A stretch of 64,000 nt of DNA from Bdellovibrionales bacterium (GTDB taxonomy: Bacteria > Bdellovibrionota > Bdellovibrionia > Bdellovibrionales > UBA1609), in NCBI GenBank assembly GCA_027459485.1, contig DAIDIG010000008.1, positions 71,402 through 135,401 on the forward strand, given 5' to 3'. Shown here in pieces: positions 1-4,900 of this stretch (position 1 is its first letter; each line of letters begins with the position of its first letter). The position numbers were made by a program, and so were the translations under genes. The notes beneath the pieces were generated by a model. The model did no database searches. It worked only from the letters and a program-made list of their open reading frames with translations, and had not been told where the DNA came from.

Positions 1-2
1 AG

Positions 3-743
3 TTCTTTTTGCGCTACATGCTTCGCGCGCAACCGGAATTGATCCTGACATGGTTTTGGGGTTCGGTTGTGATTCTCGTACAATCGTTCTTTGATCGACT
101 TCGCCCCGCCATTGCAAATCCGCTTGGGATCGAGGACCGTGTTGAATGGATTGCAAAAAAGGCCAATGCGAACCCCCGAGTCGTGCGGCAACTCAAAGAA
201 ATTTTTGTTGCCCCAGCGGCCAGCTACCCGTCGCTCATTCTGCGCGAGCTTTGGCTCGATCGCGCCTTCTTGCTGCTGGTTACATTTCTGATGCTCTATT
301 TGGTTTTCTTGCAGCTCGACAATTTATTTCGCATTTCATTTTATTGGCTCTTTATACCGATTTGTTTGTTCGTCCCGTTTTTTTTATTTTATGCGCGCTC
401 TGTAAAATCAGAAGTTCAAGAGTTCAAAGAACCGCGCGAGCGCGTGCTTACACTGACCGGGCTTATAGCGAACGTAACTCGAGTCGTTTACGGTCACACG
501 CACGTCGTGCGGCATGAAATGATTGGCCCCATCGAACACTTAAACAGCGGGACTTGGTCACCAGCCTTTCTTGACGTCGAATGTGAAAAGCCCATCGGTC
601 AAAAAACCTTTGTGTGGATTCAACCGGGAGCAAATGGCCTACGTGAAGCCCGCGTCTATCAAATCCAAAACGGAGTCGTGAGTGAGGTTTTCGGCGCGGC
701 TTCGGGCGGAAAAGCCGACCGAGAACAGCTAGCGAGCGGCTGA
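3..743 (+). CDS. Metallophosphoesterase-like protein, C-terminal part (runs off left edge)
   Basis: The reading frame is open to the left edge, so the N-terminus and first metal-binding motifs lie outside the window. About 247 residues are visible. A hydrophobic stretch of about 45 residues (near residues 85-130) looks like one or two membrane segments. It is followed by VVYGHTHVVRHE and then a conserved-looking NSGTW, which match the last motifs (GHTH, then N-x-G-x-W) of calcineurin-like phosphoesterases such as UDP-2,3-diacylglucosamine hydrolase relatives. A membrane-anchored phosphoesterase is my inference; the substrate cannot be told. The stop is 145 bp before the histone gene. Confidence 0.6.
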   Translation, partial: FFLRYMLRAQPELILTWFWGSVVILVQSFFDRLRPAIANPLGIEDRVEWIAKKANANPRVVRQLKEIFVAPAASYPSLILRELWLDRAFLLLVTFLMLYLVFLQLDNLFRISFYWLFIPICLFVPFFLFYARSVKSEVQEFKEPRERVLTLTGLIANVTRVVYGHTHVVRHEMIGPIEHLNSGTWSPAFLDVECEKPIGQKTFVWIQPGANGLREARVYQIQNGVVSEVFGAASGGKADREQLASG

Positions 744-888
744 GCGCCGTGTCAAAACGCAAACGCGCGGTGTTTTGAATTGCATCTTTAATTTTTCCAC
801 CGATAAATGTTTTGTATGTACAACCGGAGCGAAACTAGCGGATAGTAGTTACCGATAGTGCAACACGAGATTCGAAAGGGGACATCAA

Positions 889-1083
889 ATGGCAGAAGTA
901 CTCGTAGTGACTAGCAAAGTTAAAAAATTCATTAAAGAAGCAGGTGGCTGCAATACGTCGGCTGAGACAATCGCGACGTTAAGCGAAGCTGTTGAAAAGC
1001 TGTGCCGAAAAGGCATCGAGAATGCAAAAGCCGATGGCCGCAAAACGGTTATGGCTCGCGACATCGTCACTGAACACCTCTAA
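889..1083 (+). CDS. Bacterial histone-fold DNA-binding protein (Bd0055-like)
   Basis: A 64-residue protein made of a single histone fold, with no tail. The helix 1 / loop / long helix 2 / loop / helix 3 pattern is readable: KVKKFIKEAG, then NTSAETIATLSEAVEKLCRK, then RKTVMARDIVTEHL. The R-K-T-V-x-A-x-D-I string is the histone loop 2 to helix 3 signature in which Arg and Asp form a salt bridge. It closely resembles, from memory, Bd0055 of Bdellovibrio bacteriovorus, an abundant nucleoid protein reported to bind DNA as a dimer in a way unlike archaeal and eukaryotic nucleosomes. A good ribosome site (AAAGGGG) lies 7-8 bases before ATG. It is monocistronic, convergent with ligA, with only 8 bases between the two stops. 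Confidence 0.93.
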   Translation: MAEVLVVTSKVKKFIKEAGGCNTSAETIATLSEAVEKLCRKGIENAKADGRKTVMARDIVTEHL

Positions 1084-1091
1084 AGATTATT

Positions 1092-3412
<2,321 letters not shown>

Positions 3413-3418
3413 GTGTAT

Positions 3419-4900
3419 ATGAGCGAAAATATTTTGGAACTTGATCTCGCCAGCATCGTTGAGCGGGTCAAAAGACGCGAATTGACCGCCGAAATTGTTG
3501 CCACAAAATTCAAGGGTCAGATCGAAAAGCACAACGCCCATGTAAACGCATTTATCACAGTAAATGACAATGCGGTTGAGCGCGCGCGCGAAATGGATCG
3601 CAAAATTTCTAACGGCGAAAACGCCGGTCGGCTTGCTGGTGCGCCTGTTGCTATCAAAGATATGCTTTGCACGAAGGGGCTTCGTACGACCGCGGGCTCG
3701 AAGATGCTCCATAATTTTGTGCCGACGTATTCGGCCACTGTTGTCGAGAGGCTTGAAGCCGAAGGCGCCATTGTCATGGGCAAAGCCAATCAAGATGAGT
3801 TCGCAATGGGTTCGAGCACTGAAACCTCTTACTTCGGTGCATGCCGCAATCCGTGGAATTTTTCGTACGTACCCGGAGGTTCAAGCGGCGGTTCGGCTGC
3901 GGCCGTAGCGGCGCGCATGTCAGTTGCCGCTATCGGCACCGATACCGGCGGGTCGATTCGGCAGCCGGCGAATTTTTGCCATTTGGTTGGGGTCAAACCG
4001 ACTTATGGGCGCGTGAGCCGCTATGGCATTGTGGCCTTTGCTTCAAGCCTCGATCAAGCCGGGCCCATGACGCGCACAGTGCGAGACGCCGCACTCGTTC
4101 TTGAAGTGATAAGCGGACGCGACGAGCGAGATACTACCTCGGCGACAAAGGCCGTCCCCGCATGGGGTCAAAACCTCTCATCGAACCTTCGCGGCATGAA
4201 AGTCGGCATGCCCAAAGAATATTTCGATCGCGGGATTTCAGACGATGTACGAGCAGTTGTCATGCGTTCGGCGGATATTTTAAAAAGCCAAGGCGCCGAG
4301 CTCGTTGAGCTGTCGTTGCCGCTTACAAAATTTGCAGTGCCGATATACTATCTTGTGGCAACTTGTGAAGCTTCGAGCAATCTCGCGCGCTATGACGGGG
4401 TTCGCTACGGCTATCGCGCCGATTTTTCAACGCAAGCGGCGGCGGATCTCGAAGAATTTTACAGCCGCAATCGTGGCGAGGGTTTTGGCTCCGAGGTGAA
4501 GCGCCGAATAGTGCTGGGCACGTATGCGCTTTCGAGTGGGTACTATGACGCCTATTACAAAAAGGCCTGCCAAGTGCGCCGCTTACTTCGCCAAGATTTT
4601 ATCGAGGCTTTTAAGAAATGCGATGTCATCTTGAGCCCGGCCAGCCCCACTACCGCATTTAAAATAGGTGAGCGAATTGATAATCCACTCGAAATGTATC
4701 TCAATGATATTTACACGACTTCGGCTAATCTTGCCGGCATCCCGGGCATGAGTGTTCCGGGTGGCTTCAGCCGCGAAAAGCTCCCGATCGGCGTGCAACT
4801 TCTTGCCGCACATTTCGAAGAGCAAAAGATGCTCAACGCCGCTTTTGCAATTGAAGAAAATCTCAAACTTACGGCGGAGGTCCCGCATGAGCTCCACTAG
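3419..4900 (+). CDS. gatA: Asp-tRNA(Asn)/Glu-tRNA(Gln) amidotransferase subunit A
   Basis: Amidase subunit that releases ammonia from glutamine for GatB. The amidase signature is clear: catalytic Lys in VAIKDMLCTKG, the glycine/serine-rich segment GGSSGGSAAAVAARM, and the cis-Ser/nucleophile region GTDTGGSIRQPA. About 493 residues, normal for GatA. ATG at 3419 is preferred; a GTG two codons earlier (3413) directly after the gatC stop is possible. The end overlaps gatB by 14 bases, which suggests translational coupling and balanced subunit synthesis. Confidence 0.96.
   Translation: MSENILELDLASIVERVKRRELTAEIVATKFKGQIEKHNAHVNAFITVNDNAVERAREMDRKISNGENAGRLAGAPVAIKDMLCTKGLRTTAGSKMLHNFVPTYSATVVERLEAEGAIVMGKANQDEFAMGSSTETSYFGACRNPWNFSYVPGGSSGGSAAAVAARMSVAAIGTDTGGSIRQPANFCHLVGVKPTYGRVSRYGIVAFASSLDQAGPMTRTVRDAALVLEVISGRDERDTTSATKAVPAWGQNLSSNLRGMKVGMPKEYFDRGISDDVRAVVMRSADILKSQGAELVELSLPLTKFAVPIYYLVATCEASSNLARYDGVRYGYRADFSTQAAADLEEFYSRNRGEGFGSEVKRRIVLGTYALSSGYYDAYYKKACQVRRLLRQDFIEAFKKCDVILSPASPTTAFKIGERIDNPLEMYLNDIYTTSANLAGIPGMSVPGGFSREKLPIGVQLLAAHFEEQKMLNAAFAIEENLKLTAEVPHELH

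Follow-up and report, generated by a model that had tools for sequence, protein, structure and literature searches.

The histone gene in the 64,000-nucleotide stretch of Bdellovibrionales DNA analysed here (the window) is almost certainly the ortholog of Bd0055, or HBb, of Bdellovibrio bacteriovorus, a "bacterial dimer" histone with a truncated α3 helix and, presumably, an HBb-like mechanism. The gene itself is an ordinary, well-conserved member of a histone family that has already been described. More interesting than the window gene is a set of diverged relatives in its own family, in which the R51–D58 clamp of these proteins has been replaced.

The window ORF encodes a protein of 64 residues (MAEVLVVTSKVKKFIKEAGGCNTSAETIATLSEAVEKLCRKGIENAKADGRKTVMARDIVTEHL; Table 1). 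In a phmmer search against all PDB sequences, the top matches were both PDB depositions of the histone from B. bacteriovorus (E 1.8e-26 and 2e-26), each aligned end to end and without gaps. Direct comparison with Bd0055/HBb gave 50 identical residues out of 64 (78%), again gapless. All DNA contacts named for HBb (T8, S9, K10, K12, K16, N22, T23, S24, A25, K52, T53 and R57; PMC11317129) are the same in the window protein, as are D49, R51 and D58. The sole exception among the contact, clamp and interface residues reported there is interface residue 35, a valine in the window protein and an isoleucine in HBb. A preliminary description of this DNA had proposed orthology with Bd0055 and called for such an alignment; the gapless 78% identity, the conserved neighbours and the HBb structures found as best PDB matches all uphold it.

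Table 1. Features of the histone locus in the window, and the loci of the diverged relatives.
Feature	Position	Strand	Basis or remark
Upstream gene, C-terminal part, probable metallophosphoesterase	1..743	+	motifs SDLHL, GD, GNHD, GHTH; full frame starts before the window
AAAGGGG, plausible ribosome-binding site just 5' of the histone ORF	875..881	+	sequence; inference
Histone ORF, HBb-type single-fold bacterial histone, 64 aa	889..1083	+	ATG to TAA, stop codon within coordinates
Central helix α2, approximately codons 26–49	964..1035	+	residues 25–48 in the predicted model
RKTVMARDI, codons 51–59, loop L2 and short α3 with R51–D58 clamp	1039..1065	+	residue roles from PMC11317129
ligA, NAD-dependent DNA ligase, convergent neighbour	1092..3266	-	PF01653, E 1.8e-93
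gatC, conserved neighbourhood	3116..3412	+	ORF and Pfam
gatA, directly after gatC	3413–4900
Diverged HBb loci L102–L109	genomes G215, G240, G278, G298, G299, G300, G307, G308

Profile searches place the protein inside the histone superfamily. Against the Pfam histone fold (PF00808) it scores 23.2 bits, above the gathering threshold of 21.4, and with the signature at residues 51–59 this agrees with the single 64-residue histone fold first read from the sequence. A search of the whole genome with PF00808 returned no match at E 0.001, because whole-genome E-values cost sensitivity; the protein alone passes the cut-off. It scores 32.9 bits, below the cut-off of 50, against the NCBIfam model for archaeal-type nucleosomal histones (NF043032). 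The motif that marks bacterial dimer histones is present, in R51, K52 and T53 with D58, together with the α1 lysines K10, K12 and K16. One histone was found in all in the source assembly (2.75 Mb, 99.83% complete), along with three HU-family proteins.

The predicted structure points the same way. An AlphaFold2 monomer model built with 33 orthologs reached a mean pLDDT of 91.4, with α1 at residues 2–19, α2 at 25–48 and an α3 of three residues (about 56–58), which reproduces the shortened α2 and the α3 cut to 3–4 residues of bacterial dimers. The long central helix expected of a histone fold is thus present in the predicted monomer. Confidence was lower in three of the five models (means of 81.6, 68.3 and 66.5), as expected because a presumed dimer was modelled as a monomer. 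Foldseek returned five significant matches, all of them HBb structures, with TM scores of 0.77–0.84; the best were 8fvx, 9ezz, 8cmp and 9f0e.

Scanning 84,980 species genomes yielded 80 loci, nearly all labelled Bdellovibrionota, and 78 gapless orthologs were compared. S9, K10, N22, T23, L31, R51, K52, T53, R57 and D58 are invariant in all 78, and further HBb residues that never vary include L5 and T27. At each of T8, K12, K16, S24, L38, D49 and I59, no more than two of the 78 differ. The constant and near-constant positions coincide with those assigned to DNA contact, clamp or dimer interface in PMC11317129. The suggestion that this gene could reveal the residues conserved across the group was therefore borne out, and the DNA contacts seen in HBb crystals and simulations are strongly constrained throughout the order. 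For the window gene compared with its nearest relative (L002), dN is 0.06 and dS about 2.5, a value so close to saturation that the ratio can be read for its direction alone; judged from these substitutions, the window histone is under strong purifying selection. Histone matches at E 0.001 occurred in 264 of the 291 sampled genomes of the phylum, including every sampled member of the order, a count that takes in histones of other types, ZZ histones among them, and is not one of HBb orthologs. A match with two stops in a genome of the same genus (G276) is not a broken gene, as it contains nine N letters. Separately, a metagenome bin titled Streptomyces griseus (L063) carries the full Bdellovibrio-type locus of phosphoesterase, histone, ligA, gatC and gatA, so that either the binning or the title is probably in error.

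The cysteines of the window protein are C21 and C39, and not C19 and C43 as originally counted. They had been suggested as a redox difference from Bd0055, and two cysteines, one of them (C21) in loop L1 adjoining the DNA-contacting N22, are what a redox-controlled histone unlike Bd0055 might carry. We regard this as very improbable, since C39 is shared with Bd0055 and found in 76 of the 78 orthologs, and C21 is the commonest state of the group (47 have C, 27 M, 3 F and 1 Y), replaced where it varies by other hydrophobic residues. In addition, the window protein should be cytoplasmic, and the word "cysteine" is absent from PMC11317129. In a quick, midpoint-rooted ligA tree with 79 rows, a single branch (support 96) separates the M21 rows from all the others, and therefore the difference at residue 21 belongs to the group of Bd0055 and not to the window species. 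It is best read as a single change, C21 to M21, on the branch that includes Bdellovibrio, and nothing suggests a redox role for the cysteines.

If the window histone works as HBb does, two chains would pair through their central helices, and the dimer would grip the DNA backbones through its L1–L2 loops (N22, T23, S24, K52, T53 and R57), with further backbone contacts from the first turn of α1 (T8, S9 and K10). Such a dimer would be expected to bind without sequence preference and to bend the DNA. Nucleosome-like wraps would not be built, because the residues for tetramers are missing: the archaeal-type tetramer histidine is absent and A48, kept from HBb, stands at its position, which from the sequence argues against tetramers. 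In Bd0055, a triple change that included A48H was needed before DNA ends were brought together (PMC10627809). HBb is abundant in the nucleoid, and its deletion failed in two studies (PMC10627809, PMC11317129); its window counterpart would likewise be an abundant and probably essential general chromatin protein beside the three HU-family proteins of the genome.

How HBb meets DNA is disputed between a sheath around straight DNA (PMC10627809) and DNA bending (PMC11317129). The same protein might act mainly as an end-on sheath around straight DNA rather than bend it as single dimers, as suggested by the crystal structure 8FW7, the lack of an end-to-end FRET signal and AUC data (PMC10627809), and the window protein shares the residues that make contact in that mode. 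Bending is favoured by assays of tethered particle motion, topology and circularisation (PMC11317129), and we consider the sheath the less likely main mode, though one that deserves some weight. The results computed for the window histone fit both modes, and bending by single dimers is the one we provisionally adopt.

The histone lies tail to tail with ligA, and the eight bases reported between the two stops are exactly positions 1084–1091. The true ligA start is probably downstream of the ORF start at 3266, as the Pfam matches begin at residue 63. The gene upstream of the histone, whose in-window part (1–743) has no Pfam match, is a probable membrane-anchored metallophosphoesterase and a conserved histone neighbour in many relatives. 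The order of phosphoesterase, histone, convergent ligA, gatC and gatA recurs widely: a convergent ligA stop falls within 300 bases of the histone in 46 of 71 evaluable loci, meaning those with at least 2.5 kb downstream, and the phosphoesterase is found just upstream of the histone in 44 of 74. This conserved order supports orthology with Bd0055, and the histone–ligA pair is an old neighbourhood.

Conservation in 46 of the 71 loci, and in the diverged clade described below, could also mean that the convergent arrangement is functional, for example through linkage of the two 3' ends or a shared part in replication or repair. The spacing varies, however, from -17 to 248 bases (65 in B. bacteriovorus strain kdesi), many loci have intervening genes, the junction holds no terminator-like site above chance, and inheritance alone can conserve gene order; a functional coupling therefore seems improbable. 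Promoter and terminator scans at the histone locus returned nothing above chance. A literature search for a link between histone and ligA in Bdellovibrionota returned the known histone papers and one unrelated paper, and PMC10627809 contains no ligA or synteny terms. Upstream of the histone, window positions 800–835 hold a motif, ACCGATAAATGTT...TATGTACAAC (also given as ACCGATAAATGTT...ATGTACAAC), near -70, about 60–90 bases before the start codon, that is common to L002 and was not evident in six other loci compared. It is possibly a promoter or a regulator site.

Three genomes of the window's family gave only weak histone matches. Searching with one of these uncovered a diverged HBb in eight genomes of 1.4–2.0 Mb, belonging to three genera of that family. 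In all eight proteins R51 is replaced by L, D58 by H, and R57 is likewise replaced, while the lysine matching K52 and the cysteine matching C39 are kept. Profile comparison links the diverged to the normal group (E 1.6e-10, probability 96.9), and the best PDB matches of the diverged profile are HBb (E 3.4e-10); none of six diverged sequences tested reaches the Pfam histone cut-off. Wherever ligA was detected beside the gene, in 7 of the 8 loci, it is convergent. On the ligA tree these genomes group together (support 91), on long branches that leave their exact position unsure.

Two of the diverged sequences are identical over 58 residues despite a dS of about 1.06, from which it follows that selection acts on them; the diverged HBb thus appears to be under purifying selection. 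HU is present in all eight genomes. Their assemblies are 83–94% complete, and a second histone could be missed. A limited literature search found no mention of a clamp-less form of HBb. We give even credence to the reading that this protein is a histone working without the RD clamp, which is regarded as near-universal, or one with another role. The clamp-less relatives are a natural experiment on which parts of the histone are needed.

Among known systems, archaeal HMfA/HMfB and Leptospira HLp share the histone fold with the window protein, and HBb keeps four of the six DNA-binding residues of HMfB. The window protein differs from them in lacking the tetramer-forming histidine and in its shorter α2 and α3, with about 31–33% identity by structural alignment. 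ZZ histones carry a C-terminal histone domain related to the window protein, which differs in being a 64-residue single domain without their N-terminal ZZ zinc finger; a genome search found none in the window's genome. ZZ-type zinc finger histones of about 150–163 residues do occur in relatives (L094, L098 and L099), including members of the window's own genus (G145 and G276). The window protein shares with the bacterial dimer category of α3 histones (PMC11390915) a single short fold, the RKTxxxxD motif, conserved α1 lysines and a place in the class Bdellovibrionia; we see no relevant difference, and it is a member. The closest counterpart is Bd0055/HBb (PDB 8FVX, 8FW7, 8CMP, 9EZZ and 9F0E; PMC10627809, PMC11317129), which likewise has 64 residues, a short α2, a truncated α3, the RD clamp and the same neighbourhood with ligA. 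The two proteins are separated by 14 substitutions, among them M21C, S45N, I61T, L40R and K18A, and all 14 fall outside the reported DNA contacts.
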